Shown here: one piece after another, positions 40,763-61,468 of the stretch
How positions within the stretch are numbered: position 1 is the first letter of the stretch
Layout of the letters: each line of letters opens with the position of its first letter
Source: Elusimicrobiota bacterium
Lineage (GTDB): Bacteria; Elusimicrobiota; Elusimicrobia; UBA1565; UBA9628
Reading direction: 5' to 3'
Assembly: GCA_016218575.1 (NCBI GenBank)
Contig: JACRDN010000019.1
Span: 458,302-522,301, forward strand
Length of the DNA: 64,000 bases
Made by a program: the position numbers and the translations under genes
Notes under the pieces: generated by a model
The model's input: only the letters and a program-made list of their open reading frames with translations
What the model was told of the DNA's origin: nothing
The model's database searches: none

Positions 40763-41280
40763 GACCGCTCCTTGCTCAGCGCGCCTAAAGCCGCGCGGAA
40801 CTCCGCCGGCCGCACGGCCGATAGATGGTGCTTGAAGCGTATCCTGCCGGCGCCGTCCACGACGTAAAGGTTTCGCAGCGGGCATGTCCCGGGCGGGTGC
40901 GTCTGCCCGAGCCGGCGCGCGACGATATCGTCGGGGTCGAGGAGGATCGGAAACCCGCAATTCCGCGCGACCTTCGGCGGCAGAGGATCGTTGATGTCCA
41001 GGATGCTGACGGCTAGGACGCGGAGGCGGCCGCCCGATTCGCGGCGCGCCTCCTCCAGCAGCGGGATGCGAGCCCGGCAGTCATCGCAGAGATTCGTGAG
41101 CCACAACACCGTCAGGCCGCCTGGCTTGCCGTCATAGAGCGAATGAGACTTCCCATCGACATCTTTTAGGGTGAAATCGGGGAAGCACCCTCCCACCTCG
41201 ACGCCGGGGTGAAGCCGCGCCCTCAACGGCCAGAGAGCTCTCCACAGCCAGATTTGCAGGCGGCGGCTTATCGGCTCCAT
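40759..41280 (-). CDS. Redoxin (AhpC/TSA, TlpA-like) domain protein
   Basis: A 173-residue thioredoxin-fold protein. An N-terminal amphipathic or membrane-near helix precedes GGCFPDFTLKDVDGKSHSLYD, the start of the redoxin fold, and the redox site lies in TNLCDDCRARIP. A further Cys in PPGTCPLRNLYVVDGAGRI follows the cis-Pro region. It may reduce peroxides or act as a thiol oxidoreductase. The start MEPISRR overlaps the end of the flavoprotein disulfide reductase gene by 13 bases, which suggests that the two form a redox pair. Confidence 0.8.
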   Translation of the reverse strand: MEPISRRLQIWLWRALWPLRARLHPGVEVGGCFPDFTLKDVDGKSHSLYDGKPGGLTVLWLTNLCDDCRARIPLLEEARRESGGRLRVLAVSILDINDPLPPKVARNCGFPILLDPDDIVARRLGQTHPPGTCPLRNLYVVDGAGRIRFKHHLSAVRPAEFRAALGALSKERS

Positions 41281-42824
41281 CGAAGCCACCCGCCGAGCAC
41301 GTCCTTGACGAAAGGCGTCAGGCGCGTCCGGCTGTAGGCGTCGGCGACCTTCTTGATGCACTCGGCCTGCGTGGGATAGGGATGGATGGTCTGGGCTATG
41401 GTCTTGAGTCCCGCTCCCGGGGTCATGGCCACGGAGATCTCGCTGAGCATCTCTCCGGCGTGCCGGGCCACGATGGTCGCGCCTAGGATATGGTCCGTTC
41501 CCTTGCGCACATGCACTTTGATGAACCCCTCGCTCTCTCCATCCAGGACGGCGCGATCCACGTCACGGAATTCCGAGACGAAGGTCTCGACCGGGATTCC
41601 CTTGTCCTTGGCGTCCTTCTCGTAAAGGCCCACGTGCGCGATCTCGGGATCGGTGTAGGTGCACCAGGGGATGGTCAGCGCGCCGGCCCGCTTGCGCCCC
41701 ATGAACAGCGCGTTCTGGATGGCGATGCGGGCCATGGCGTCGGCCGCGTGCGTGAACTTGTAGGCGGAGCAGACGTCGCCCGCCGCGTAAACCTTGGGAT
41801 TCGAGGTCCGCAGGCGCTCGTCGACCTTGACCCCGGTCTTGTCGTAGCTGATCCCCGCGGTCTCAAGCCCGAGGCCTTCGACGTTCGGCGAGCGCCCCAC
41901 GCCGACGAGCACGGCGTCGAAGGCCGCCTCGCCCGAGGGGCCGTGCTTGGACTTGAACCGCACCACCCTCTCGCCGCCGCGACGCTCGACGCGCTCAATA
42001 TCGACGCAGCACAGAAATTCTACCTTATCCCGGCCCAAAGCCTTGCGGATAAGCTCGGAGGCGTCCAAGTCCTCGCGGGGCAAGACCCCGTGCATCGCCT
42101 CGAACAGGGTCACGTGCGAGCCGAACCGCGCGAAAGCCTGCGCCAGCTCCACGCCGATGGGGCCCGCGCCGATCACGAGGAGGCGTTTCGGGAGCTCGGT
42201 CAGGCTGAACACCGTCTCGTTGGTCAGCGCCTCCGCCTCCCAAAGCCCCGGGATCGGCAGCCTCGCGGCGCGCGCTCCCGTGGCGATCACGGCCTTCGAG
42301 AAGCTCAGGCGCTTGCCGTCAACCTCCAGAGAATCCGGCGACACGAACTTCCCCTGTCCCAGGAAGACATCGACGCCGAGGTTCTTGAACCTCTGGACCG
42401 AATCGTTGGGGCTTAATGCCGCGCGCAAGCGCCGCATCCGCTCCATGACCTTCGGGAAATCTACCGTCGTCCCGGGCGGGACGCGCACCCCATACTCTCC
42501 CGCGTCGCGCACGTCGGCGCAGGCGCGCGCGGCCCGGATGAGGGCCTTGGACGGGACACAGCCCACGTTCAAGCAATCGCCGCCCATCAAGTGCTTCTCG
42601 ACCAGGGCTACCTTCGCGCCCAGCCCGGCGGCCCCGGCGGCCGTCACGAGCCCGGCCGTGCCCGCGCCGATGACGACGAGGTTGTAGCGGTCCGCCGGCT
42701 GCGGGTTGACCCAGGCGGGCGGATGGGCGTTCGCGACGACCGTGCGGTTATGTTCGTCAAAGGGCTCGATGCGCACGGTCTGATCCATAAGCCTCCGGTC
42801 GTTCAACGTCGTGTCCGTCTTCAT
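41268..42824 (-). CDS. MerA-like FAD-dependent disulfide oxidoreductase
   Basis: A 518-residue flavoprotein of the pyridine nucleotide-disulfide family. FAD motif VIGAGTAGLVTAAGAAGLGAKV at 51-72 (read as a GxGxxG block), redox-active pair GGDCLNVGC (C84, C89), NAD(P) motif VIGAGPIGVELAQAF, AAGDVC and the interface TIHPYPTQAE. It resembles mercuric reductase, but has neither an N-terminal HMA domain nor the C-terminal Cys pair that binds Hg. Such proteins recur beside arsenosugar genes with TVP38 and DUF547. GGGAGG precedes the ATG. A candidate ECF promoter lies 33 bp upstream. Confidence 0.88.
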   Translation of the reverse strand: MKTDTTLNDRRLMDQTVRIEPFDEHNRTVVANAHPPAWVNPQPADRYNLVVIGAGTAGLVTAAGAAGLGAKVALVEKHLMGGDCLNVGCVPSKALIRAARACADVRDAGEYGVRVPPGTTVDFPKVMERMRRLRAALSPNDSVQRFKNLGVDVFLGQGKFVSPDSLEVDGKRLSFSKAVIATGARAARLPIPGLWEAEALTNETVFSLTELPKRLLVIGAGPIGVELAQAFARFGSHVTLFEAMHGVLPREDLDASELIRKALGRDKVEFLCCVDIERVERRGGERVVRFKSKHGPSGEAAFDAVLVGVGRSPNVEGLGLETAGISYDKTGVKVDERLRTSNPKVYAAGDVCSAYKFTHAADAMARIAIQNALFMGRKRAGALTIPWCTYTDPEIAHVGLYEKDAKDKGIPVETFVSEFRDVDRAVLDGESEGFIKVHVRKGTDHILGATIVARHAGEMLSEISVAMTPGAGLKTIAQTIHPYPTQAECIKKVADAYSRTRLTPFVKDVLGGWLRWSR

Positions 42825-42850: not shown

Positions 42851-43012
42851 CTAAAAATGAGTAGGGCCATGCCCCGGAAAGTTGCGGCGCCCGCGTTTCC
42901 TTCCTCCGAATCGCGTCCAGCAGACTTCCACGCCGCAGCCGATCAGGGCAAGGCCGATGGCTCCCAGCAGGATGGCGATGGCGAAACGGAGCGTCGGGAT
43001 GCCGAATATCAT
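42851..43012 (-). CDS. Small single-helix membrane protein (53 aa)
   Basis: Starts MIFGIPTLRFAIAILLGAIGLALIGCGVEV, one hydrophobic helix, then a basic tail WTRFGGRKRGRRNFPGHGP. The ATG overlaps the TVP38 stop as ATGA, which argues for translation. Two Cys flank the end of the helix. No family recognised. The stop region overlaps the candidate promoter for the next gene. Confidence 0.55.
   Translation of the reverse strand: MIFGIPTLRFAIAILLGAIGLALIGCGVEVCWTRFGGRKRGRRNFPGHGPTHF
42857..42886 (-). promoter_or_regulatory. Candidate ECF-type promoter, site E (flavoprotein operon)
   Basis: Minus-strand CGCAAC (42886-42881) followed after 18 bp by ACTCAT (42862-42857), with TTTCCGGGG directly after the first part. 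The TTTCCGGGG and CCCTACT flanks match site A (51022-51051) closely. It is 33 bp before the flavoprotein reductase start and inside the end of the small membrane protein gene. Confidence 0.5.
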
Positions 43013-43698
43013 GATTGGACCCGGGTTTGCTCGTCGAGAGCGGAACGCGCTAGGCGCGTGATGAGCACGCTCACGGCCGCGGTGGCGGCGAGGCCGAGGG
43101 CGTAGAGTGCCCATTCCATCCTCGTCCGGGCTCGGCCGCCCGAGCCGAGACCTGCGAGGCTGCCGGCGAGCGAACCGATGTAGACGTACATGACGGTTCC
43201 CGGCAGCATGCCGATCCATGAAGCCAGGACATAGTCCCGCAGCCGGACTTCCGTGATCCCGAAGGCATAGTTCAGGAGATTGAACGGGAATACGGGCGAG
43301 AGCCTCGTCAATCCGACGATCTTCCAGCCTTCTCGCGCGACCGCCGCGCTCACGGCGGCGAATCTCGGGTTGGTTTCCAGCTTCCGTGCGACCCATTCCC
43401 GGGCCATATAGCGGCCGATCAAGAACGAAGCCGTCGCGCCCGCCACCGAGGCGATGGAGACATACACCGTCCCCATGACCAGCCCGAACAGCGCTCCCGC
43501 TCCCAGCGTGAGCAGCGATCCAGGCAGGAACAAGACGCAGGCCGCGACGTAGGCGGTTATGAAAGCGGCGGGCGCCCAGGGGCCGAGGCCATGCACGCGG
43601 ATAAGAAGTCCTTCGAGCAGCGTTCGGGCGTCTTGCTGTCGCAGGAAGACGAACAGCCCCACGGCCAAGAGCGCGATGACGACATGCCTGAGTTTCAC
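43009..43698 (-). CDS. TVP38/TMEM64 family membrane protein
   Basis: A 229-residue polytopic protein of the SNARE-associated/DedA-like superfamily. The core ALFGLVMGTVYVSIASVAGATASFLIGRY and GLTRLSPVFPFNLLNYAFGIT are diagnostic, followed by SWIGMLPGTVMYVYIGS. Related proteins move lipids between leaflets. It overlaps DUF547 by ATGA and the small membrane gene on the other side. TVP38 genes are common companions of arsenosugar clusters. The actual substrate is not established. Confidence 0.9.
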   Translation of the reverse strand: MKLRHVVIALLAVGLFVFLRQQDARTLLEGLLIRVHGLGPWAPAAFITAYVAACVLFLPGSLLTLGAGALFGLVMGTVYVSIASVAGATASFLIGRYMAREWVARKLETNPRFAAVSAAVAREGWKIVGLTRLSPVFPFNLLNYAFGITEVRLRDYVLASWIGMLPGTVMYVYIGSLAGSLAGLGSGGRARTRMEWALYALGLAATAAVSVLITRLARSALDEQTRVQS

Positions 43699-44534
43699 GG
43701 CCGCGGCCTCTCGTTGAGCGACCAGTCGTAATCGAGGTACTTGATCTTGAACTCTCGCTCCGTCAGGAAGGCGCGGTCGATATCGCCCAAGGAGCGGCCG
43801 ATGAAGTTCAGCGAGGCTCTTTGCTCCGCGCTGTGACCGCCGAATCCCGAGGAGGGCGCGTAGGCCTGCGTGAAGTCACCGCCGAACCACTGGAAGATCG
43901 GCGACAGGTAGACGACTCCCGCGTCCCGGTCGATCCGGAACTTGTCCGTGGACTTCAGAAACCGCCCGGCTTGGTCGTCGAGTTGGAAGTCGAGCTTGGG
44001 TCCGGTGAACGCCTCGCCGCGCAAGGGTGGGCAGCCGATGGAGGCGCACACCAAGGCCACATGGATGCGCGGTTCTTTGAACCTCTTGCGCAGCGTCTCG
44101 TGCTCGATCTCCCCCAGCGTGACCCTGCGCCCCATGACGCGGAATCTTAGCTTGTCCCACACGCCGGGTATCTGCCGGATGCTGTTCTTCGGATAGCGTA
44201 CCGAACCAAGCCAGGAGGGCTTGATCGGGTAATGGTCGAGGATGGCTTTGACGGTCAAGGCGTTGTAGGCGTTGACCCAGAAGGCGATCTGCGCCTCGCT
44301 GGACCAGGAATCATGCTCTGCCGGGCGGAGCGCGGCCAGGGAGTCAAGATAGCGGTCAAGCGCTTCCGGATGGGACTGGAGTCCCTTGTAATCGACGCGC
44401 CCGTCTTGGACATGGGACTGGAGAACCTGTTCCCAAAGAGCGTGGGATGGGTCGAACGCGGCCAAGGCCGGGGCGCCCAGAACGATTCCCCCCACCAACG
44501 GCATGAAGAGTCGGCTGATGTTACGCGGCGTCAT
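43695..44534 (-). CDS. DUF547 domain protein, exported
   Basis: A 279-residue protein with a signal peptide (LFMPLVGGIVLGAPALAA) and a DUF547 domain: DYKGLQSHPEALDRYLDSLA, QIAFWVNAYNALTVKAIL, and HVALVCASIGCPPLRGEAF with the conserved Cys residues. The fold is related to papain-like or transglutaminase-type hydrolases, but no reaction is agreed. The start at 44534 overlaps the previous glycosyltransferase gene by 14 bases. It is a standard member of the cluster. Confidence 0.88.
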   Translation of the reverse strand: MTPRNISRLFMPLVGGIVLGAPALAAFDPSHALWEQVLQSHVQDGRVDYKGLQSHPEALDRYLDSLAALRPAEHDSWSSEAQIAFWVNAYNALTVKAILDHYPIKPSWLGSVRYPKNSIRQIPGVWDKLRFRVMGRRVTLGEIEHETLRKRFKEPRIHVALVCASIGCPPLRGEAFTGPKLDFQLDDQAGRFLKSTDKFRIDRDAGVVYLSPIFQWFGGDFTQAYAPSSGFGGHSAEQRASLNFIGRSLGDIDRAFLTEREFKIKYLDYDWSLNERPRP

Positions 44535-45207
44535 GGAGTTTCTCCTCGCTGAGCAATGCGGCGAGCGCGTCTCTCGTGAATGCCGCCCTGGTCGGACTGC
44601 CGGCACGCAGCTCGTCGGCGACACGCTCCAGATCCGCGAAGGTGTCGATGTCGTTCAATTCGGGAAGGCGTCCCAAGGAAACGCCTTCCAACCGCGCGCG
44701 GGCAACCGTTTCCGCGAAGACCTTGTCGCTTGACCAGGGTATGCGAGCGAACAGGCCTGGGCGCGCCTTGCGCAGGCCGATCAGGTAGTAGCCTCCGTCT
44801 CTCGCGGGACCTAGGACGGCCTCCTCGCGGTCCAAGACCGAGAAAGCCTTCGCCACGATGGCGCAATCGAGCTGGGGCGTATCCGACCCGATGATCACCG
44901 CCTTGTCCGCGCCGTCGGAGAAAGTTTTGGCGAAGGCATTCTCAAGCCGCTGGCCGAGGTCAACGCCTTGCTGGAGGAAGAAGCGGAGTGGGGTTCGCGG
45001 CTCGATCCAGTCCAGGGCCGGGTGATCGTCGCAAGGGGCATAAGCGACTTCGACCCGCGCCTCTGGAACCCCGGCCGCGGACGCCAGGGTGTCTTTGACG
45101 AAGGCGCGGTAGAGTTCCGCGGCCTGGGCGAAAGACAGCGGAGGGCAGAGTCTGGTCTTGACTTGTCCCGCCACCGGGGCTTTGACGAAGACGATGATCG
45201 TGTTCAT
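44521..45207 (-). CDS. DUF2064 / TIGR04282-type arsenosugar glycosyltransferase
   Basis: A 228-residue nucleotidyl/glycosyl-transferase-fold protein. FVKAPVAGQVKTRLCPPLS at the N-terminus, VIIGSDTPQLD in the middle and GPARDGGYYLIGLRKARPGLF near the end are the DUF2064 signature. The TIGR04282 subgroup is named for its place in arsenosugar gene clusters. It lies 55 bp after the GT2 gene and overlaps DUF547. Its donor and acceptor are not known. Confidence 0.88.
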   Translation of the reverse strand: MNTIIVFVKAPVAGQVKTRLCPPLSFAQAAELYRAFVKDTLASAAGVPEARVEVAYAPCDDHPALDWIEPRTPLRFFLQQGVDLGQRLENAFAKTFSDGADKAVIIGSDTPQLDCAIVAKAFSVLDREEAVLGPARDGGYYLIGLRKARPGLFARIPWSSDKVFAETVARARLEGVSLGRLPELNDIDTFADLERVADELRAGSPTRAAFTRDALAALLSEEKLHDAA

Positions 45208-45262: not shown

Positions 45263-45946
45263 TCATCGGTACAACCTCGCCAGGGAGCGCGGAGGCACCC
45301 CCAGATAATACAAAACGATGATGCCCACGCTACGCAGGGCGTTGAAGACCCTGCCGTTTCTCTCGTAGCGCCGGGCGGACGTCGCCACCGAGCCCGGCAG
45401 TATCATGACCCGGCCCAACGGTTTGAGCTTCTTGAAGAGCTCGTATTCTTCCATCAGAGGGACCGGCGGAAAACCTCCGATCCTGAGGAAGGTATCCCGA
45501 CGCAAGGCGATGCCTTGGTCTCCATGAGGGACGCGGGTCAGGTCGGTTCTGAGGCTTGCCAGCCGGGAGACGAAGCGGTAGTAGGGGTCTGGACTCCCGA
45601 ACCCCAGCCGGAAGGCCGTGGCGACCGGCGCATCGTCGGACGACCAGGCTTGAGTCAACTCATCGAGCCAGTCCCCTGGAAGCCTCGTGTCCGCGTGGAG
45701 GAATAGGAGCAGGTCGCCGCTGGAGGCTAACGCTCCTTTCTGCATCTGCAAGGCCCGCCCTGATTGCTTTACCTGGATGAGCTTGTCCGCCTTGGCTCTA
45801 GCCACCTCCGCGGTGCGGTCGGAGCTTGCGCCATCGGCGACAATGATCTCCACTCGGCCGGGGCCTGAGCTCAGCCGAAGGCGCGCGATCGCCTGGGCGA
45901 TATTTTCCTCCTCGTTGAGCGTGGGGATGATGACCGAGATGTTCAT
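45263..45946 (-). CDS. GT2 glycosyltransferase, TIGR04283 (arsenosugar cluster) type
   Basis: A 227-residue GT-A enzyme. ISVIIPTLNEEENI, EIIVADGASSDRTAEVA, LLLFLHADTRLP (DxD-type HADT) and PHGDQGIALRR match the TIGR04283 subgroup, which recurs next to TIGR04282 in arsenosugar clusters. MEEYELFKKLKPLG is the conserved acceptor-side segment. A hydrophobic patch near the C-terminus (VGIIVLYYLGV) may touch the membrane. The start overlaps the mannosyltransferase-like gene by ATGA, and a candidate internal promoter lies just upstream. Confidence 0.88.
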   Translation of the reverse strand: MNISVIIPTLNEEENIAQAIARLRLSSGPGRVEIIVADGASSDRTAEVARAKADKLIQVKQSGRALQMQKGALASSGDLLLFLHADTRLPGDWLDELTQAWSSDDAPVATAFRLGFGSPDPYYRFVSRLASLRTDLTRVPHGDQGIALRRDTFLRIGGFPPVPLMEEYELFKKLKPLGRVMILPGSVATSARRYERNGRVFNALRSVGIIVLYYLGVPPRSLARLYR

Positions 45947-47346
45947 GGTGCGTTCGTCTCCTGAAACTGAGTCGTAGCAGCGGGGGAAACGTTACACCGC
46001 GCGGCCTGGATGAGCCTGCCGATTTCCCAAAGGAGGAGCCCAAGAACGGTGCCGTATTGCGCCAGCCATAGAAGGGTCGAGGCAGGAACGAGCCAAGGGC
46101 TGGTTCTTAGGCGGCTGTCGACCATCAGGTATGCCAAGCCCACGAGCCAGGTCCAGGCCAGAGCGCTCCAGAGGCGATGCAGGCACAGCAGAGGGAGCAG
46201 CCAGAGGACGTACCAGGGTTGGACGACCGGGCTGCACAAGAGCAGCGCGAACAGGCAGCCCAAAGCGTAGGCGGTCGGGCGATCCCTGTTGGCGAGGGCC
46301 CAAGGTATGGAGAGGGTGCCCAGGGCGGCGGCGAACGCGATCCTCCGGGCCGCGGGATCGGCAATGACGGCTATCGCCAGGCTGAAAAGCCCGGGATTGG
46401 TCAGCCACTCCGACGCGAAGGCCCGCATTCCTACGAACATGGGAAGTCCTTGCCTATAGGCCTCCCAGAGGTCACCCGCAAATGGCGCGACGCAGAGGGC
46501 GATGACGCCGAAGTAGGCGAGGGCGGGGCCGCGGCGGCGTTGGACTAGGACCCATGGAATCATGACGAGCGGCGCGAGCTTGGCCATGGCCGACAGCCCG
46601 AGCACGGCGCAGCCGGCCAGCGGCCTCCCTCTTTCGAGGAGGTAAAGGCCCGCCAACATGGCGAACATCATCAGAGGGTCAAGGTGCCCGGAGCCGGCGA
46701 ACTCGATCACCGGCAGCGGATGCCAGGCGTAGAGCGTCGCCCACGCGGCGGACTGCCCGCGCGCGCTCAAAAAACGCATGAGCAGCCAGATCGTGAGCAA
46801 GTCGAAGAAGACGAAGGCGCCCTTTTGAGCCAGCACGGCGGGAGAGGCGGTCGCGGCAAGGCGAAAGACCCACTGAGCCAGGGGCGGGTAGATCGTGGAC
46901 AATTCGGGATGATTGATGAGTCCGTGCCACGAGGCCCGCAGGGAGGCCAACTCCGCAGACGACGGCGCGTGGAGGTAGGGGTTGATCCCGGCGAGCTGCA
47001 CGCGCCCGTCCCAGGCATAGCGGTACACGTCGGTCGAGATCATCGGCGGCCCCCAGATCAGGACGAGGCGAAAGAGGGCCGCGCAACCGAGGATGAGCCA
47101 AGGCAGGGCGGCGCGCGCGCGCGCTGAAAGCGGCTCCAGGACCGGGGCGTTGTCCGTGAGCCAAAATGCGGTCGCCATGGACAGCAGGCAGAGGGCGGCG
47201 TAAATCGCGAGGAACTCGGGGATGTGTTGCCGCAGGGGCGCATACAGGCGCAATGCCGCATGTCCGGCGAGGGTGGAGGACGCGATGACGAGGAGGAACT
47301 TCGCTGAGGCCGATCGAGAAAGCGACTGGGTATCGCGCTGCTCCAT
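45943..47346 (-). CDS. Polytopic glycosyltransferase (GT87/DUF2029-like)
   Basis: A 467-residue membrane protein with about eleven helices. RYAWDGRVQLAGINPYLHAP in the first periplasmic loop, containing Asp and Arg/Tyr after a helix, is typical of GT-C polyprenol-phosphate-sugar-dependent mannosyltransferases. YPPLAQWVF and SGHLDPLMMFAMLAGLY also fit. The start at 47346 overlaps the stop of the radical SAM fusion gene by one base (TGATG). It may glycosylate a lipid-linked product of the cluster. The acceptor is unknown. Confidence 0.8.
   Translation of the reverse strand: MEQRDTQSLSRSASAKFLLVIASSTLAGHAALRLYAPLRQHIPEFLAIYAALCLLSMATAFWLTDNAPVLEPLSARARAALPWLILGCAALFRLVLIWGPPMISTDVYRYAWDGRVQLAGINPYLHAPSSAELASLRASWHGLINHPELSTIYPPLAQWVFRLAATASPAVLAQKGAFVFFDLLTIWLLMRFLSARGQSAAWATLYAWHPLPVIEFAGSGHLDPLMMFAMLAGLYLLERGRPLAGCAVLGLSAMAKLAPLVMIPWVLVQRRRGPALAYFGVIALCVAPFAGDLWEAYRQGLPMFVGMRAFASEWLTNPGLFSLAIAVIADPAARRIAFAAALGTLSIPWALANRDRPTAYALGCLFALLLCSPVVQPWYVLWLLPLLCLHRLWSALAWTWLVGLAYLMVDSRLRTSPWLVPASTLLWLAQYGTVLGLLLWEIGRLIQAARCNVSPAATTQFQETNAP
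45967..45996 (-). promoter_or_regulatory. Candidate ECF-type promoter, site D (GT2 gene)
   Basis: Minus-strand TGTAAC (45996-45991), then GTTTCC, and after 18 bp ACTCAG (45972-45967). It sits 21 bp before the GT2 start and inside the end of the upstream coding region, so it would be an internal promoter for the distal part of the operon. Confidence 0.45.
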
Positions 47347-49886
47347 CAGCAACAGGATGAGCCGCCGCTTCCCGTCGCGCAGCAGGCTTCTTGCGAGAGG
47401 GCTCCTGAAGAGGCCTCCAGCGAGCCATCGGGTTCGATCAGGGCGAAGCGGCCGACGTAAGGGGCGGCCTTGAGTTTTGCCGCCGTGTCGGTGCAGACCT
47501 CGACGACCTCCCCGCGCGGGAAAAGGTGGCCCTCCTCGTCGATCACGGCCTTGTAGGGTCCCCAGTAGATTGCCTTCTGGCCAATGAAGGAACAGCCCGC
47601 CTTCTTCTCGAACTTGAAGCCGCGCACGGTGATCGAGTGGAACTTGTAGCCTTCCACCTCCTTCCAGAAGGTCTTCTTGAGGAGAGCAAGACCGTAAAAG
47701 CCGGCCTTCTCCAAGCCGGCGATGAACTCCTCCTCCGACAGCGCCCCCGAGATGCACTCGCCCCACAGGTCCTTGTGCGCCTGAAGCGACAATGGCACCG
47801 GCTGGTCCGCGACGATGTCGGCCACCACCAGGCGGCCGTTGTCCTTGAGTATTCTCCAAATCTCGGAGAAGACCCTGCTCTTGTCGGGCGACAGGTTGAT
47901 GACGCAGTTGGAGGTCACCAGATCCACGCTCTTGTCGTCCGCCGGGATGTTCTCCAGGTAGCCCTTGCGGAATTCCACCGCGTCATAGCCGAGGCGTTCG
48001 GCGACCACGGGCTTGCATCGGTTCGCGGTCTGGAGCATCGGGTCGGTCATGTCCACGCCGATGACCTTGCCGCTCGCCCCGACCTTCTTGGCCGCGATGA
48101 AGCAGTCGATGCCGGCGCCCGAGCCGAGGTCCAATACCGTCTCCCCCGGGCGGACCTCGGCCGACGAGATGGGCGAGCCGCAGCCATAGAAGCGGTCGAT
48201 GACCTCCTGCGGGATGTGTCCCACCTCGCTCTCGTCGTACTTGACGGGGCAGCAGAGCTCCTTTTGCGGCTCTATCGCCGCCTTGCCGTAGAAGTTCTGG
48301 ATGATCCGGTAGGGCTTCTCCACGTCGAAGGAGAGCACGCAGTTGGTGTGCAGCAGCCGGACCCGGCGGTTGCCGTTCTCCGAGAGCAGGTCGCGGGCGT
48401 CCGAACTGCAGGCGATGGAGTCGTCTCCCATGGCATGGTAGACCGGGGGTGGGTTGAAGCCGGACTTGAGGTTCAAGGCCGCCTTCTTCTTCAGGGCCAG
48501 TTCCGCCATCGCGTCCTGGATCAGCTCCACGTACAGGTCATGGTAGGGGTCTTGGGCCACGAGGCTGCCTTCCTTGCCGTTCGCGCTGAAGAAATAGCTG
48601 TGCTCCATGTCACCACCGCCGGTCAGATAGCGGAAGGGGTGCCCCGAAAGCGACGCGATCTCAGCTACGCTGGCTTCGCGGAAGGACTTGGCGACGGGGC
48701 TCTCCAGCCACAGGGAGCGCAGGGGCAGTTGCCGGGCCGGCCCGAGACTCAACGTGGGCACGCCGGCCAACGCGGCCGACGGATAGACCTGCCCGTCCAT
48801 GTACAGGGCTAGGCTCTCCCAGCACAGGTTGCCCAGGTCGTACTTGATCCCCGGCCAGCCGTTGACGCGCTTCCGGATGGAGGCGAAGTTGTCGAAAGTG
48901 ACGCCGAGCTTTTCGGAGGATTCCCTCACCTTGCGCGATAGAGCCAGAAGCTCGGCCGTGGCCGGGAAGGAGTCGCCTCCGGCGGTCTGCAGGATCCGGC
49001 CACGCTTGTGGAGCCACATGAGGTGCACGGATTTCGCGCCCAGCCGACTCGCCAGAGCCGGCAGTTCCTCCAGGTCCTTCAGGTTGGACCGCGTGACCGC
49101 CGCGGTCAAGGAAGTCGCAAAGCCCAGGAGGTTCAACGCCTTCAGGCCCTCCGAGGCTTTCTCGAACACGCCGCGACCGCGGATGGGGTCGTTGACCGCA
49201 GGAGTGGTCCCATCCAAGCTGACTTGGAACTTGAGTTTTTCGCGGTCGAGGCCCTTGAGCCGTTCGAGCCGGCTCCCCTCAAAAAGCGTGGCGTTGGTCA
49301 AGATGATGAGTTCCGACTTCTTCGCCTCCGTGACGTGGCGGATCAAATCGCCGATGTCCTCGCGGACGAAGGGCTCGCCGCCGGTGAAGTAGAAGCGCCG
49401 GACCCCGAGTTCGTGGGCTTGGTCGATCATCCGAGCGTAGAAGGCGACGCCCTCTCCCTTGGCGCCCTGGGGATTGGAAGAAACCAGGCAGTGAGTGCAG
49501 GCGAGGTTGCAGGTCTGGAGAAGGTGTATCCAGAATTCCTTGAGCGACTCAGGCTCCAGGTGTTGCGCGCGTCCGACGTAGGCCGATCGGTGGATGGGCT
49601 CCAAGGACAGCATTCCCTTGCGCAGCGCCTCCCGAACGAAGACATGGACGTCCCGCCAGCTTTTGCCGGAGTCCATATCCTGAAGCGCGGCGTAGCGCCG
49701 GCGGATATCCCCCAAGGTCCTCTTGCCGTCGATTTGCCCGAGCAGTTCCGCCCCCCTGGCGTCCGTGGCCATCCAGTTGGGCGCCTCGGCGTCCACGAAA
49801 AAGTTCACGCCGTCGCGCTCAAAGGCGTGAAGGTCCGGTTTGTAGAGCACGGCGGCGTCTTTGAGTTCTGCGGTCGAGGTTTCCAT
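47346..49886 (-). CDS. PqqD-like / radical SAM / ArsM-type methyltransferase fusion
   Basis: An 846-residue three-part protein. Residues 15-95 resemble PqqD peptide-chaperone domains (winged helix, EAPNWMATDARGAELLGQID). Residues 118-345 are a radical SAM core with C126-x3-C130-x2-C133 and TGGEP at 168-172. Residues 525-770 form an ArsM-like methyltransferase with CCPVKYDESEVG (545-556), YGCGSP (567-572), SAM loop VLDLGSGAGIDCF, SNCVINLSPDK and a CISGAL Cys at 711. The tail CCATGSGGSSCC is Cys-rich, as in many ArsM proteins. A good ribosome site, AAAGGAG, precedes the ATG. Separate ArsM and ArsS enzymes make arsenosugars elsewhere; a single fused enzyme that methylates and alkylates As(III) is the inference. 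It is 12 bp after the phosphate transporter gene. Confidence 0.8.
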   Translation of the reverse strand: METSTAELKDAAVLYKPDLHAFERDGVNFFVDAEAPNWMATDARGAELLGQIDGKRTLGDIRRRYAALQDMDSGKSWRDVHVFVREALRKGMLSLEPIHRSAYVGRAQHLEPESLKEFWIHLLQTCNLACTHCLVSSNPQGAKGEGVAFYARMIDQAHELGVRRFYFTGGEPFVREDIGDLIRHVTEAKKSELIILTNATLFEGSRLERLKGLDREKLKFQVSLDGTTPAVNDPIRGRGVFEKASEGLKALNLLGFATSLTAAVTRSNLKDLEELPALASRLGAKSVHLMWLHKRGRILQTAGGDSFPATAELLALSRKVRESSEKLGVTFDNFASIRKRVNGWPGIKYDLGNLCWESLALYMDGQVYPSAALAGVPTLSLGPARQLPLRSLWLESPVAKSFREASVAEIASLSGHPFRYLTGGGDMEHSYFFSANGKEGSLVAQDPYHDLYVELIQDAMAELALKKKAALNLKSGFNPPPVYHAMGDDSIACSSDARDLLSENGNRRVRLLHTNCVLSFDVEKPYRIIQNFYGKAAIEPQKELCCPVKYDESEVGHIPQEVIDRFYGCGSPISSAEVRPGETVLDLGSGAGIDCFIAAKKVGASGKVIGVDMTDPMLQTANRCKPVVAERLGYDAVEFRKGYLENIPADDKSVDLVTSNCVINLSPDKSRVFSEIWRILKDNGRLVVADIVADQPVPLSLQAHKDLWGECISGALSEEEFIAGLEKAGFYGLALLKKTFWKEVEGYKFHSITVRGFKFEKKAGCSFIGQKAIYWGPYKAVIDEEGHLFPRGEVVEVCTDTAAKLKAAPYVGRFALIEPDGSLEASSGALSQEACCATGSGGSSCC

Positions 49887-49898
49887 GGTCGATCTCCT

Positions 49899-50945
49899 TT
49901 AAAACACCTGGCGCAATATGGTGCGCCAGGTGCCTGCCAGAAGGGAGTATACCTCACTGGCAGGCATCCATTTGAGCGTCCAGTAGGCGCCGGCGCCGAG
50001 AATGCCGGCGGCGGGCAAAGTGATGAGCCAGGCCGCGAGGATTTCACCGGCGACCTTCCAATCAATCGCGGCGGTGCCTTTGCGAAGCCCCATGCCCATG
50101 ATGGCCGAGCTCGAGACATGGGTCGTAGAGACCGGAAATCCATGGACCGCCGTTGCGACGGTCAGGGCGGCGGTCGCCAGGTTGGCCGCGAAGCCTTCGA
50201 GATGGTCCATCCGCGTGACCTTGTGCGCCAGCGTCTCCGTCACTTTGAGACCCATGACGATGCCGCCGAGGGCGTTGGAGAGAGCCAGGACGAGGAAAAA
50301 CCAGCGCGGGGCGACCGAGACGACGGGGTCGGCCAGGAAGTAGAACACCAGCCCCAGGGCCGCGATCTTTGGGGTATCGTTCAAGCCCCGCGCGAAGCCG
50401 CTCGACATGGCGCTCATCCAGTGGGCCCAGTGACAGTTCAGGCAGTATTTCTGCCGGCACAACCAGAACAGGCTCCGGAAGGCGAGGCGGGCCAAGCCGA
50501 AAGCGAGGACGGGTGATAGAAGGAGCGGCAGGAAGACCTTCGTCGTGACCCCGCTCCAGAGGACGCTCGAAAACCCGAAGGCATAGACCGCCGTCAGGAT
50601 GACGCTGCCCACGATGGCGTGGGTGGTTGAGACGGGAAGCCCGAGCCTTGTCGCGAGAAGGACCCAGCCGATGGCGCCGGCCAGCACGGCCATGGCGAAG
50701 AGCTGGTTGATCTGCGTCTGGGGCAGCAGCATCCCCTTCGTGAACAGCAAAGTCATCTTGATGGCCCAGGCCGATGCCAGGACCGCGCCGGCGGCCACGG
50801 CGAAGGATGTCAAAACGACGGCTCGCTTATAGTCCGACTCGCCGCTGCCGACCAAGGTGGCGATCGACTTCGAGATGTCGTTGGCGCCGTTTGCGAACGC
50901 CAGCAGCGCGGCGCCAAACAAACCGGCGGAAGTCATCAAGTCCAT
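49899..50945 (-). CDS. PiT-family inorganic phosphate transporter
   Basis: A 348-residue membrane protein with the paired PiT repeats: FANGANDISKSIATLVGS near the N-terminus and FARGLNDTPKIAALGLV in the second half, plus LPVSTTHAIVGSV and FPVSTTHVSSSAIMG. PiT carriers import phosphate with protons or as metal-phosphate, and arsenate can enter this way. It is the first gene of the minus-strand operon leading to the radical SAM fusion and is divergent from the ECF sigma gene. A loop CRQKYCLNCHWAHW contains a CxxCH sequence that is probably not haem-loaded, since it is in a transporter loop. Confidence 0.9.
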   Translation of the reverse strand: MDLMTSAGLFGAALLAFANGANDISKSIATLVGSGESDYKRAVVLTSFAVAAGAVLASAWAIKMTLLFTKGMLLPQTQINQLFAMAVLAGAIGWVLLATRLGLPVSTTHAIVGSVILTAVYAFGFSSVLWSGVTTKVFLPLLLSPVLAFGLARLAFRSLFWLCRQKYCLNCHWAHWMSAMSSGFARGLNDTPKIAALGLVFYFLADPVVSVAPRWFFLVLALSNALGGIVMGLKVTETLAHKVTRMDHLEGFAANLATAALTVATAVHGFPVSTTHVSSSAIMGMGLRKGTAAIDWKVAGEILAAWLITLPAAGILGAGAYWTLKWMPASEVYSLLAGTWRTILRQVF

Positions 50946-57595: not shown

Positions 57596-58489
57596 TCAAA
57601 ACCAGAGGCGAAAGCTGCCTAACAGGCGGTAGTCCGTCCTTAGAGCGGTCCCGTTGAGGCTTTGCACGGCCGGCAATTGCGCCGCAAACTCGAACACGGC
57701 CCTTTTGGTGACCCATTGCAGTCCGGGCGTCAGGAACAACTGGTAGCCGCCTGAGTCGCCGTCCGTGACGCCGCCCGCCTCGTTCTTCGCCTGGTAGACG
57801 TTGTTGGCTTCCAGGACCCCGTAAAGGTAGTTGGGCAGGCCCTCCGCCTGCAATACCCTGGGCCAAATGCGATACTGTAGGGAAACGTTCTGCTCCAGCG
57901 CATCGCCGAACTTGAAGTCATCGGCCTTTGTGTTTCTCCGGTAGGAGATATCCGCATCCGCCTGAAAGGCGAGCCACTGGCCGGTCCACACCGTGCCGAA
58001 CATGGGATCGTAGGACCCCGATCCAAGCTGCACGGAGGGCGGCAGGACGCCGAGGGCGTCGGATTCGGTGTTTCTGCCGCTCGGCCACTTTAGTCCGGCG
58101 AAGACCGCTCCGCGGGTGGTCTGTCCGGAGCTGCTGCGCGCAAAGATCTCGTATCGGCCGACGGTCATGATGTCTCCCAGCCCGGAAGCTCGCCGGACGG
58201 CGCCGGTCGACTTGATCGCCAGCCTTTTGTCCATGTACGGGAACACGCCCATCAGCGCCAGCTTGGAGCTGACCCCGTAAACCAGCACGGAGGGAACCGC
58301 CGCGACATCCATTTCCCGGCCCATGGGAGAAGGGTCGTTATGCATTCTCATCCAAACTCCCTGCCCGCGAAAGAGCATTCCTCCCTCATGCACGGGAAGG
58401 GCGGTGTTGAAGCTGATGGGCGCGGCCTCAAGGGGCGGGACGGGGATGGCCAGTAGGGATAGGGAGAGCAGAATCCGCGCCGTTTTCAT
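57596..58489 (-). CDS. Outer-membrane beta-barrel of the mer-type operon
   Basis: A 297-residue protein with a signal peptide, repeated amphipathic strands (VFAGLKWPSGRNTES, LFLTPGLQWVTKRAVFEFA) and a C-terminal Phe (LGSFRLWF). It resembles transporter-like barrels seen in heavy-metal clusters. It is the last gene of the operon and overlaps the NHL-HMA gene by 4 bases. It may let metal or a metallophore cross the outer membrane; no direct evidence. Confidence 0.65.
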   Translation of the reverse strand: MKTARILLSLSLLAIPVPPLEAAPISFNTALPVHEGGMLFRGQGVWMRMHNDPSPMGREMDVAAVPSVLVYGVSSKLALMGVFPYMDKRLAIKSTGAVRRASGLGDIMTVGRYEIFARSSSGQTTRGAVFAGLKWPSGRNTESDALGVLPPSVQLGSGSYDPMFGTVWTGQWLAFQADADISYRRNTKADDFKFGDALEQNVSLQYRIWPRVLQAEGLPNYLYGVLEANNVYQAKNEAGGVTDGDSGGYQLFLTPGLQWVTKRAVFEFAAQLPAVQSLNGTALRTDYRLLGSFRLWF

Positions 58490-59706
58490 GGGTGCGCCTT
58501 ACGGACGGGCGACATTTCCTTGAGTTCCGTGGCCTTGAACCCGGCCTTCTCCACGGCCTTGCGAACCTCATCGAAGGAAACGGTCTTGCCCGGCTCCAGA
58601 TCCAGTATCGCCGTGCCCTGACCCAGGTTCACGCGGGCGGAGCGCACGCCGGCAAGCCGGCCCAGGTGTTTCTCTATGCCGTAGGCGCAGAAGGGGCAGG
58701 CCATGCCTTCGATCCGCACCAGTACATCCCCGGAAACATGCTCGGCGGCAGGAGGCTCTGGGGCTTGCCGGCCCGCGCCAGCGGCCTCGGAGGCTCCAAG
58801 GCCCAGGACCAGGATGCGGTCATTGGCGGTGTCGGCCGCAAAGATGCGTCCTCGCGGTCCGGCGGCGATATGGGTCGGGGAGTAGACGTTGGGACGCCTG
58901 TCGTCTGCCGGCCTCCATTCGCCTTCAAAGTCTCCCTTGGCTCCCAGCAAGACGACGCGTTTGTTGGCTGAGTCCGCAACGTGGATGTCGCCGCGGGCGT
59001 CTACCGCGACGCCGCTGGGCACATGTAAAGCGCCGCGTGAGAAGAAGCGCTTCCAGGCGGAGCCCCATATTTCCAGGGACCGTCCGTCCGGCGCGACCCT
59101 CTGGATCCGATGGTTGTAGGCGTCAGCTACGACCAGATTGCCTGAGTTATCAAAATCCAAATCCGTGGGATAAGTAAATTCGCCTTTGCCGCGCCCCTTC
59201 TTACCGATGGACTTGAGCCACTTGCCTTTGGAGTCGAAGGCCTGGATGCGGTGGTTGTAGAAGTCGGCCACGTAGACATTTCCTGCCTTATCCACCGCGA
59301 CCCCGGCAGGCGAACGGAATTGGCTGTTTCCCTCTCCCGGCTCTCCCCAGCCGTAAAGGCGCTTGCCGTCCGGGGAAAAAGCCTCGACGCGGTCCGCCTC
59401 GTAGTCGCACACATAGAGCGTCCCTTCGACGCTGATCGCTATATCCACGGGTTTTTTGAACGTATCCGACCCGCCGAACTCCGCAAGGAATTTACCTTCC
59501 GGCGAGAGCTTCTGCACTCGGCGGTTGCGCGAATCGGCCACGTAGACGTTTCCTTGCGCGTCTACTCCAACCCCCATGGGCTCCCTGAATTGCGCAGGGC
59601 CGGCGCCGCTCGTCCCCCACGCGGCTATGAGGCTATAGCCCGGAACAGCGGCTCTGGCGGTCGCCATGGAGACTGCAAGGAAAACAAGCGCCAGCATCAT
59701 TCTCAT
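58486..59706 (-). CDS. Exported NHL-repeat propeller fused to an HMA metal-binding domain
   Basis: A 406-residue protein with a signal peptide (MMLALVFLAVSMATARAA). Six NHL repeats follow (GVGVDAQGNVYVADSRNRRVQKL, GVAVDKAGNVYVADFYNHRIQAF and so on), forming a beta propeller to about residue 310. After a Pro-rich linker, an HMA domain starts at about residue 330 with GMACPFCAYGIEKHLG, the CxxC metal site of MerP/CopZ-type proteins. The fusion suggests a periplasmic metal carrier held by a propeller. It starts 19 bp after the small thioredoxin-like gene. I know no named family with this pairing. Confidence 0.82.
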   Translation of the reverse strand: MRMMLALVFLAVSMATARAAVPGYSLIAAWGTSGAGPAQFREPMGVGVDAQGNVYVADSRNRRVQKLSPEGKFLAEFGGSDTFKKPVDIAISVEGTLYVCDYEADRVEAFSPDGKRLYGWGEPGEGNSQFRSPAGVAVDKAGNVYVADFYNHRIQAFDSKGKWLKSIGKKGRGKGEFTYPTDLDFDNSGNLVVADAYNHRIQRVAPDGRSLEIWGSAWKRFFSRGALHVPSGVAVDARGDIHVADSANKRVVLLGAKGDFEGEWRPADDRRPNVYSPTHIAAGPRGRIFAADTANDRILVLGLGASEAAGAGRQAPEPPAAEHVSGDVLVRIEGMACPFCAYGIEKHLGRLAGVRSARVNLGQGTAILDLEPGKTVSFDEVRKAVEKAGFKATELKEMSPVRKAHP

Positions 59707-59725
59707 ATAGTCCAGACCTAAGTCT

Positions 59726-59998
59726 TTAACTGAGTCCAACACCGGCGGCCTTCAGCGCCTCCGCCGTCAACTGACCTTGACGGCAACAGTCCAATAGACG
59801 CCCGTCCACCGCGACCGCCGGGACCCGCTTGATACCGTATTCCTTTGCCTTGGTCCGGCATTCGTTGGTGGAGCACCCCTTATTAAGGTCATAGACCACG
59901 ACATCACAGCTCGGACAGGCCAGCGACTTGACGGTCTTGACCGCGTCCTCGCAGACCGGACAGCCCGCGGTGAACACCTCGACATTTCTTTTAGCCAT
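59726..59998 (-). CDS. Small thioredoxin-like protein
   Basis: A 90-residue protein with an N-terminal CPVC in EVFTAGCPVCEDAVK, a second CPSC, and a C-terminal RVPAVAVDGRLLDCC. The cis-Pro segment VPAV fits a glutaredoxin/thioredoxin fold. Similar Cys-rich small thioredoxins accompany mercury operons. It overlaps the CopZ-like gene by 8 bases. It might pass metal or electrons between the chaperone and the other operon products; not established. Confidence 0.75.
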   Translation of the reverse strand: MAKRNVEVFTAGCPVCEDAVKTVKSLACPSCDVVVYDLNKGCSTNECRTKAKEYGIKRVPAVAVDGRLLDCCRQGQLTAEALKAAGVGLS

Positions 59999-60470
59999 GA
60001 CTTTTCACCTCCTCTTGAATCTTCTTGATCGCTCCGGCCACGTTGCCGAGGCAGCACGCTCCCTGCGGGTTCTTGCGCTCGCAGGCGCAGCGGCCCTCGG
60101 CGATTCCCTTCTTGATTCGCTCCGGGATATCGGTCTTGCCTCTCTCCGCCAGGTCCTGTCGGAGATCGCCGCGCTTGAAGTCGAAGCAATAGCAGACGGG
60201 CACCTGATCTCCCCCGTCCTTTATCGTCACTGGCAGAATCGTCTGGCTTTTGCGGACGACGAATCCGCTCGGGTTGCAGTAGACCGCTTCGCAGGCCGGG
60301 TTGAGGCAGAACGTGGCGTCGTCGCCGATGGCCGCTCTCAAGGGCTGAGGGACGTGATGATCCAAGGTCAAAGCCGCCACCTTGCGCCCGGCGTTGCCGC
60401 AGAGGGGGCACGGACAAGCCGTCGTCCCGATGTGGCAGCACTCTTCGTGGTTAGGAGCGCGGCTTTCCAT
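59991..60470 (-). CDS. CopZ-like Fe-S cluster metallochaperone
   Basis: A 159-residue protein without an HMA tail. The N-terminal part has ACPCPLCGNAGRKV, a zinc-type knuckle, and the C-terminal part CYCFDFKRGDL and GRCACERKNPQGACCLGNV, which match the 2Fe-2S and zinc domain of Archaeoglobus CopZ. In that protein the cluster domain is fused to a copper-binding HMA domain. Proteins of this kind are frequent next to merT/merP. It overlaps merTP by 20 bases and the thioredoxin gene by 8. Confidence 0.82.
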   Translation of the reverse strand: MESRAPNHEECCHIGTTACPCPLCGNAGRKVAALTLDHHVPQPLRAAIGDDATFCLNPACEAVYCNPSGFVVRKSQTILPVTIKDGGDQVPVCYCFDFKRGDLRQDLAERGKTDIPERIKKGIAEGRCACERKNPQGACCLGNVAGAIKKIQEEVKSHG

Positions 60471-61053
60471 GAGCCCCTCCCTCCAGAATTTCGGCCTTGT
60501 AGCCGGCGGCGGCTACTGCCTTGAGCACAGCCTGGGGATCGGCCTTGCCGTTCGTGGCTACCCGAGCCTGTTGGCTGTCGAAATCCACGCTGGCGGAGTA
60601 GACTCCGGGGACCTTCTCCACCGACTTCTTGATCGCCACGGTGCAGGCCGCGCAGTCCATGCCCGAAACCCTGAGACTGATCACCTGGGCGTCCGCCGGA
60701 GCGGCGACAGACCCTCCGTTGAGCACCCAGGCGGACCAGTTGGGAAAAGTCGCCACGCCCAAAGTCATGACCGTTACGGCCCAGAGCGTGGCCTTCACCG
60801 TGCGGCTGCCGGATCGCAGCTCACAGTCGCCATCCGCGCAGGCGACCGGCCGCTTCCTGTATGCCTGGTAGAAACCGGCGGCGAGGACCAGTCCCGTCAG
60901 GGCAAGAAACAGCGGCCGGTACTGGGAGAGACCCGCGGCCAAACCCAGGCTGCCAAGACCCAGGCCGGTCACGATCAGCGGGCCGACGCAGCAAATTGAG
61001 GCCAAGCCCGCTGAAGCCAGGGCAACGGCTCCGACAATGACTCTATTGTTCAT
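60451..61053 (-). CDS. MerT-MerP fusion mercury transport protein
   Basis: A 200-residue protein. The MerT part has three helices with a CC pair at 21-22 in the first helix and a loop pair C71/C76 (ACADGDC). After a third helix, a MerP/HMA domain follows with SGMDCAACTVA (C133, C136). This is the MerTP arrangement, which moves Hg2+ from the periplasm to the cytoplasm. The ATG at 61053 overlaps merR by 11 bases. No merA is nearby, so the metal might be exported, sequestered, or handled by another reductase. Confidence 0.92.
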   Translation of the reverse strand: MNNRVIVGAVALASAGLASICCVGPLIVTGLGLGSLGLAAGLSQYRPLFLALTGLVLAAGFYQAYRKRPVACADGDCELRSGSRTVKATLWAVTVMTLGVATFPNWSAWVLNGGSVAAPADAQVISLRVSGMDCAACTVAIKKSVEKVPGVYSASVDFDSQQARVATNGKADPQAVLKAVAAAGYKAEILEGGAHGKPRS

Positions 61054-61468
61054 GGCGATTTCCTCCCCCATCTTCAAGACTGTCCAGGATCGGGCAGCGA
61101 TTGGTCGTCGCCCTAGCCGAGCATGTCCGAATGAGCCGTTCGAGCACCCTCTCCATCGCGCCAAGCCCCGCGATCTTGTCCTGCACGATCTTGAGTCGTG
61201 CCTGGGCCTGACCTTTGACCTTGCCGCACTGGATCTTGCGGCCGATGCGCAGGCGCAGGAGCTTGGCGATCTCGTCAAGGGAGAAGCCGAGGTTTTGGGC
61301 ATTCCTGATGAAACGAAGCTTCCTGACGGCCTCCTTGCCGTATAGCCTATAGCCTGAGTCCCGGTGGCCGTCTGGAAACAAGAGTCCGCGGCGCTCATAG
61401 TAGCGGACCGTTTGAACGTTGACCCCGGCCTGCTTGGCCACCCTGCCTATAGTCAATCTTCCATCCAT
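61043..61468 (-). CDS. merR: MerR family mercury-responsive regulator
   Basis: A 141-residue regulator with a winged-helix domain (TIGRVAKQAGVNVQTVRYYERRGLL) and a dimer helix. The three Hg-binding Cys are present at C81 (IQCGKV), C116 and C125 (CSARATTNRCPIL), the same spacing as in MerR. It is the first gene of the mer-type operon, unlike many systems where merR is divergent, so it is probably self-controlled. Other thiophilic metals cannot be excluded. Confidence 0.92.
   Translation of the reverse strand: MDGRLTIGRVAKQAGVNVQTVRYYERRGLLFPDGHRDSGYRLYGKEAVRKLRFIRNAQNLGFSLDEIAKLLRLRIGRKIQCGKVKGQAQARLKIVQDKIAGLGAMERVLERLIRTCSARATTNRCPILDSLEDGGGNRHEQ

Follow-up and report, generated by a model that had tools for sequence, protein, structure and literature searches.

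Biosynthesis of organoarsenic compounds by the arsenite methyltransferase ArsM together with a radical S-adenosylmethionine (SAM) enzyme is already known. On the route to oxo-arsenosugars, arsenic is adenosylated by ArsS; the group transferred by ArsL is 3-amino-3-carboxypropyl (PMC12159101, PMC8552651). These two are the only radical SAM enzymes forming carbon-arsenic (C-As) bonds in the literature that was searched, and the protein described here points to a further, unrelated lineage. It is encoded in a 64,000-nucleotide stretch of DNA of an Elusimicrobiota bacterium (assembly GCA_016218575.1, contig JACRDN010000019.1), which is called the window below. The protein joins on one chain a domain resembling PqqD and the RRE (recognition element of ribosomally synthesized and post-translationally modified peptides, RiPPs), a radical SAM core, a SPASM-like region and ArsM. 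We consider that this fusion is probably a bifunctional organoarsenic synthase and stands in for the ArsM and ArsS pair in an arsenosugar-type pathway, because of its neighbours, the lack of ArsS in the genomes that carry it, and the presence of ArsM with ArsS, as separate genes or as an ArsS-ArsM fusion, in similar clusters of its relatives. The novelty lies in the different radical SAM lineage and in its presence on one chain with ArsM.

The fusion gene reads on the minus strand from an ATG at 49886 to a TGA at 47346, through 846 codons. It has its own ribosome-binding site (AAGGAG), starts 12 bp past the upstream gene and ends in a TGA overlapping the start codon of the GT87 glycosyltransferase gene that follows (TGATG). 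The plus-strand reading of the same interval contains in-frame stops and was rejected. The uninterrupted frame and all the motifs reported by an earlier, sequence-only reading were recovered on this minus strand, namely CxxxCxxC (C126/C130/C133), LCCP (544-547), YGCGSP, SNCVINL, GECISGAL and a tail ending in CC. As the G+C content is 64% and an antisense open reading frame (ORF) of 428 amino acids lies within the same stretch, frame length alone is weak evidence; the frame is taken as real because of its end-to-end conservation in relatives and its invariant cysteines. In a scan of GTDB contigs, Elusimicrobiota, Nitrospirota and Planctomycetota yielded 12 relatives that match over nearly the full length with 48-82% identity, and for 17 full-length relatives the end-to-end identity is 51-81%. 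In the 27 complete copies of the fusion collected from these three phyla, 13 cysteines are invariant (C126, C130, C133, C516, C545, C546, C569, C661, C711, C765, C836, C845 and C846). Surveys of two phyla found the fusion in 15 of 295 Elusimicrobiota genomes, with two copies (L059 and L064) ended by contig ends, and in 11 of 294 Planctomycetota genomes. An assembly join or a frameshift artefact was rejected on the strength of the 27 complete copies. The relatives carry the same fusion rather than separate genes joined only here, and the proposal that PqqD-like, radical SAM and ArsM parts form a single enzyme is upheld by profiles, structural model and relatives alike. None of the NCBIfam and Pfam matches listed was to a single family model spanning the whole chain, and no published description of the fusion was found in the literature searched, which missed most subscription journals. 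In one Planctomycetota copy a conserved Ser codon is replaced by an in-frame TAG (QI*LDG, L012:9204-9206, plus strand), due to a point mutation or a sequencing error. Two other Planctomycetota fusion genomes contain second ArsM-like frames interrupted by TGA or TAG (G505:C8:33313-33912 and G527:C9:23908-24591), which are possibly selenoproteins or pseudogenes.

The C-terminal half was identified as ArsM by profiles, structures and comparison of its As-binding cysteines with those of CmArsM, in agreement with the sequence-only reading, and no profile placed it outside ArsM. The match to the arsenite methyltransferase model PRK11873 reached 238.7 bits, which is the best NCBIfam ArsM score and lies below the cut-off of 263 (NF008823), with the match starting at model position 39. 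The arsinothricin ArsM model scored 209.7 bits and the arsenosugar ArsM model 150.4 bits, both below cut-off. By these scores, the ArsM part represents an ArsM-like subfamily outside the modelled one. ArsM crystal structures were the top matches in a sequence search of the PDB, and Foldseek matched ArsM structures to the C-terminal part of the model with E values down to 9e-21, so that the class I methyltransferase fold expected of ArsM is present. In addition to the three aligned As-binding residues, C545/C546 probably provide the further N-terminal ArsM cysteine, at a position outside the 4kw7 alignment.

The N-terminal half contains the PqqD-like domain claimed by the sequence-only reading. 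Pfam PqqD matched the window protein weakly (17.5 bits, E = 0.0054, below cut-off) and the family clearly (10 of 13 members, best 1.8e-6), and the AlphaFold2 model, built on an alignment of 18 fusions (mean predicted local distance difference test score [pLDDT] 79.2, predicted template modelling score 0.66), agrees. A PDB sequence search with this domain gave nothing significant (best 0.09; PqqC/D at 0.58), and the domain call therefore rests on Pfam and fold. The following radical SAM core shows the CxxxCxxC motif, a GGE motif invariant in the 18-sequence alignment and the core fold, as expected for the superfamily. Among the NCBIfam radical SAM models, the Rv1681-like one comes closest (127.6 bits, with a cut-off of 380). 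With Foldseek, the N-terminal part matched CteB over 477 columns (template modelling score by target 0.69-0.71) as well as SkfB and SuiB, which are peptide maturases carrying RRE, radical SAM and SPASM-type domains. The PqqD/RRE domain that characterizes RRE-containing RiPP maturases is thus present in the fusion, judging from family matches and fold. The cysteines of the SPASM auxiliary cluster are missing from the window protein and its clade. They occur at window positions 413, 416, 422 and 449 in every one of the 10 Planctomycetota/L011 copies and are missing from all 17 Elusimicrobiota/Troglogloeales copies; since one clade has kept them and the other has lost them, the auxiliary cluster appears to be dispensable and the window copy a reduced form. 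Related radical SAM proteins without ArsM were observed in Planctomycetota (L125:9677-11641, minus strand; L127:9123-10757 and L130:8314-9930, plus strand). Some of them have an RRE-like domain, and the sequences of L125 and L127 terminate with DNGYCICFA.

The radical SAM half is distinct from canonical ArsS, as the sequence-only reading had supposed. The match to the ArsS model TIGR04167 is confined to model positions 2-151 and scores 66.6 bits, where the cut-off is 300. In a phylogeny of the radical SAM cores, the fusion lies outside the ArsS clade (100/100), which stands on a long branch. An identity with canonical ArsS was rejected on both grounds. The radical SAM half comes from the RRE/SPASM (peptide-maturase) branch, and the case would be one of non-orthologous replacement plus gene fusion. 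Without being ArsS, the fusion stands, as ArsS does, as the genomic partner of TIGR04283, TIGR04282 and ArsM. TIGR04283 and TIGR04282 are 'arsenosugar biosynthesis' glycosyltransferases by their NCBI names; members of both lie next to the fusion in the window with scores over cut-off, a context that had escaped the sequence-only reading.

The distribution of these genes is consistent with a replacement. In the window genome no protein exceeds the ArsS cut-off, the top ArsS match being the fusion itself (69 bits), which is also the sole ArsM match. No ArsS was found in the 26 fusion genomes of the two phylum surveys (0/15 in Elusimicrobiota, 0/11 in Planctomycetota). Among the 295 Elusimicrobiota genomes, ArsS over cut-off is present in seven, and in one more where it is ended by a contig end, all free of the fusion; in Planctomycetota it occurs in 91 of 294 genomes, none with the fusion (P = 0.016). 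TIGR04283 over cut-off was found in 13/15 fusion genomes against 14/280 others in Elusimicrobiota (p = 1e-13), and in 8/11 against 81/283 in Planctomycetota (p = 0.004). Within the TIGR04283-positive genomes, ArsS and the fusion do not overlap (P = 0.025 in Elusimicrobiota, 0.0003 in Planctomycetota).

Similar clusters of relatives hold ArsM and ArsS in other arrangements. The L088 cluster contains PHO4, a separate ArsM, GT87, canonical ArsS, TIGR04282, DUF547 and TIGR04283, and ArsM adjoins a separate ArsS in several Planctomycetota. A canonical ArsS (398 bits) is fused to ArsM in a 686-residue protein next to DUF547, VTT and flavin adenine dinucleotide (FAD) oxidoreductase genes (L094:3433-5493, minus strand), and the end of a sister copy was found at L096:2-1495 (plus strand); no published report of this fusion was found in the literature searched. 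In the ArsM tree, in which some long branches meet, the ArsM half of the ArsS-ArsM fusion belongs to another clade than that of the window-type fusion, and the joining of ArsM to a radical SAM enzyme therefore probably occurred twice, separately. Long ArsS frames of Planctomycetota (up to 887 amino acids) were also considered as ArsS-ArsM fusions and rejected, as no ArsM domain lies in the same frame. A third state consists of ArsM directly followed by a further non-ArsS radical SAM protein (L083:11173-12204, minus strand; L081:755-1621, plus strand). Relatives of this protein in L079 and L080 adjoin TIGR04283 or TIGR04282, with no ArsM seen, and it may be another partner in arsenic chemistry.

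We propose that the C-terminal ArsM would hold As(III) through C569, C661 and C711 and methylate it with SAM, as the conserved active-site residues strongly suggest. With a [4Fe-4S] cluster bound by C126, C130 and C133, the radical SAM domain would then reductively cleave a second SAM, judging from the context, and the resulting radical would be joined to the methylated arsenic through a C-As bond. The group transferred would most likely be 5'-deoxyadenosyl, as with ArsS, given the replacement and the neighbouring genes, and an adenosylated arsenical would be the product that context alone indicates. More speculatively, the Cys tail could pass trivalent methylarsenic, which is toxic, between the two sites, and the RRE-like domain could hold this tail. 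Assembly of the sugar part would follow and be the work of the TIGR04283, TIGR04282 and GT87 proteins. A broader proposal can be put forward only tentatively: that the fusion founds a new class of C-As-forming radical SAM enzymes from the peptide-maturase branch, which methylates and radically alkylates As(III) on one chain, carries the arsenic internally by means of its Cys tail and RRE-like domain, and makes a product that may be unlike known arsenosugars.

Several observations weigh against the replacement of ArsM and ArsS. The chemistry of the second step is argued from genomic context alone; ArsS is distant in the radical SAM tree, so that common descent gives no reason to assume a common reaction. 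The presence of an RRE-like domain usually points to a peptide substrate. The exclusion of ArsS over all Elusimicrobiota, unconditioned on TIGR04283, is not significant (0.66), and the p-values for co-occurrence and exclusion given above ignore shared ancestry. Neither ArsS nor the fusion is present in 9/27 Elusimicrobiota and 27/89 Planctomycetota genomes with TIGR04283, TIGR04283 was unmatched in 3 of the 11 Planctomycetota fusion genomes, and several fusion genomes carry the glycosyltransferases on contigs other than that of the fusion. No paper proving a role of TIGR04283 or TIGR04282 in arsenosugars was found in the literature searched. That the C-As bond is formed with another group, either 3-amino-3-carboxypropyl as with ArsL or a novel one, to give a new arsenical decorated by the glycosyltransferases, would fit a radical SAM half that is not ArsS, the preference of the ArsM part for the arsinothricin model and the loss of the SPASM cysteines in the window clade. 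This is nevertheless unlikely, as L088, whose standalone ArsM likewise scores higher with the arsinothricin model (300 bits) than with the arsenosugar model (133 bits), has canonical ArsS in the same cluster, and the context of arsenosugar-type glycosyltransferases is unlike the arsQML arrangement (PMC8552651).

Modification of a peptide by the fusion is unlikely because no conserved precursor-peptide ORF was found within 4 kb of any of 25 fusion loci. The recurring short ORFs near these loci are all antisense to conserved genes, the operon junctions of the fusion gene (12 bp and TGATG) leave no space for a precursor gene, and no peptidase or peptide exporter was found among the labelled neighbours. 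A RiPP system was rejected in view of the null precursor search and the position of the short ORFs, and the suggestion of the sequence-only reading that peptide-bound arsenic is modified found no support. We therefore regard as very improbable a RiPP maturase whose peptide is loaded with arsenic, or carries arsenic methylated, by ArsM, even with PqqD matches in 10 of 13 members and the alignment to CteB (477 columns, 0.69), SkfB and SuiB. No more credit is given to a detoxifying ArsM with a redundant or regulatory radical SAM part, in a cluster that methylates arsenic for export: all As-binding cysteines of ArsM are kept and the window clade lacks the SPASM cysteines, but CxxxCxxC is kept in 27/27 copies, GGE is invariant in the alignment, and both the replacement pattern with ArsS and the recurring glycosyltransferase neighbours speak against it. 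The least probable explanation of all is that the substrate of the ArsM-like domain is a different element or a small molecule instead of arsenic; this would account for the failure to reach any curated ArsM cut-off (best 238.7 against 263 bits), but the equivalents of C72, C174 and C224 and the Cys tail are invariant, and the top structural matches are ArsM enzymes.

The fusion gene belongs to a same-strand run of genes for a PHO4 transporter, the fusion, GT87, TIGR04283, TIGR04282, DUF547, a VTT membrane protein and an FAD-dependent oxidoreductase (Table 1). Subsets of these neighbours recur at other fusions. PHO4 is the commonest in Elusimicrobiota, where it adjoins the fusion in most loci, and it adjoins ArsM in L083 and L088. 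TIGR04283 or TIGR04282 also lies beside the fusion in Planctomycetota (L116, L118, L119 and L121). About 8 kb from the start of this run, a MerT/MerP-like protein (60451-61398, minus strand) and an NHL-repeat protein with a heavy-metal-binding domain at its C-terminal end (58486-59742, minus strand) were recognized by eye and form a possible mercury cassette.

Table 1. Features of the fusion gene and of the neighbouring genes, with their positions in the window.
Feature	Position	Strand	Evidence
RRE/PqqD-like + radical SAM + degenerate SPASM + ArsM fusion protein, 846 aa	47346..49886	-	ORF, family matches, relatives
PqqD/RRE-like domain, residues 12-100	49587..49853	-	Pfam PqqD in family, pLDDT mostly 83-96, Foldseek
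Radical SAM core, residues 112-300	48987..49553	-	Pfam Radical_SAM 68.1 bits
CxxxCxxC motif, C126/C130/C133	49488..49511	-	Kept in 27/27 fusions
SPASM-like region without cluster cysteines, residues 345-470	48477..48854	-	Cys comparison, 27 copies
ArsM arsenite methyltransferase, residues 545-815	47442..48254	-	PRK11873, ArsM crystal structures by sequence and fold
C569 = CmArsM C72, As-binding	48180..48182	-	Alignment to 4kw7; 27/27
C661 = CmArsM C174, As-binding	47904..47906	-	Alignment to 4kw7; 27/27
C711 = CmArsM C224, As-binding	47754..47756	-	Alignment to 4kw7; 27/27
Disordered Cys tail (C836, C845, C846 invariant)	47349..47408	-	AlphaFold2 model, Cys alignment
PHO4/Pit-type phosphate transporter, first of run	49899..50945	-	Pfam PHO4 208 bits
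GT87 glycosyltransferase, ATG overlapping fusion TGA	45943..47346	-	Pfam match, junction reading
TIGR04283 arsenosugar-type glycosyltransferase	45263..45946	-	230.4 bits, cut-off 182
TIGR04282 arsenosugar-type glycosyltransferase	44521..45207	-	208.1 bits, cut-off 134
DUF547 protein, start codon uncertain	43695..44624	-	Pfam; recurs in fusion and ArsS clusters
VTT/TVP38-type membrane protein	43009..43698	-	Pfam; recurs in fusion and ArsS clusters
FAD-dependent disulfide oxidoreductase, MerA-like	41268..42824	-	NF004991 815 bits, cut-off 620; recurs in fusion and ArsS clusters

If the replacement of ArsM and ArsS by the fusion is correct, arsenosugar-type biosynthesis reaches genomes without ArsS, and an RRE-type radical SAM enzyme, recruited to arsenic, provides a clear example of non-orthologous replacement. 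The users of this lineage are uncultured Elusimicrobiota, Nitrospirota and Planctomycetota, and a single protein of 846 residues makes the coupling of methylation to radical alkylation directly testable.

Compared with known systems, the N-terminal half resembles CteB (5wgg), SkfB (6efn) and SuiB (5v1t) in domain order and fold, whereas the fusion is joined to ArsM, no precursor peptide was found for it near the loci searched and the window clade lacks the SPASM cluster cysteines. The C-terminal half has the fold, the SAM site and the three As-binding cysteines in common with CmArsM (4fr0/4kw7), CrArsM (5evj) and human AS3MT (8xt7), and differs from them as the C-terminal third of a longer chain, in a clade of its own and below the NCBIfam cut-offs. 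ArsS (TIGR04167) shares with the fusion the radical SAM motif and an ArsM partner in clusters with TIGR04283/TIGR04282; the fusion lacks the DCDFN and CTAGxGSxC parts of its relatives' ArsS and carries an RRE-like domain. The ArsS-ArsM fusion of the Elusimicrobiota genus g26 (L094, L096) likewise has the radical SAM part first and ArsM second, and that of L094 has DUF547, VTT and FAD-oxidoreductase neighbours in common with the window, but its radical SAM half is a true ArsS and its ArsM belongs to another clade. ArsL and ArsM of arsinothricin biosynthesis are a radical SAM enzyme and an ArsM making a C-As bond, as proposed for the fusion; unlike the fusion, they are encoded by separate genes with the transporter ArsQ, and ArsL moves a 3-amino-3-carboxypropyl group (PMC8552651).

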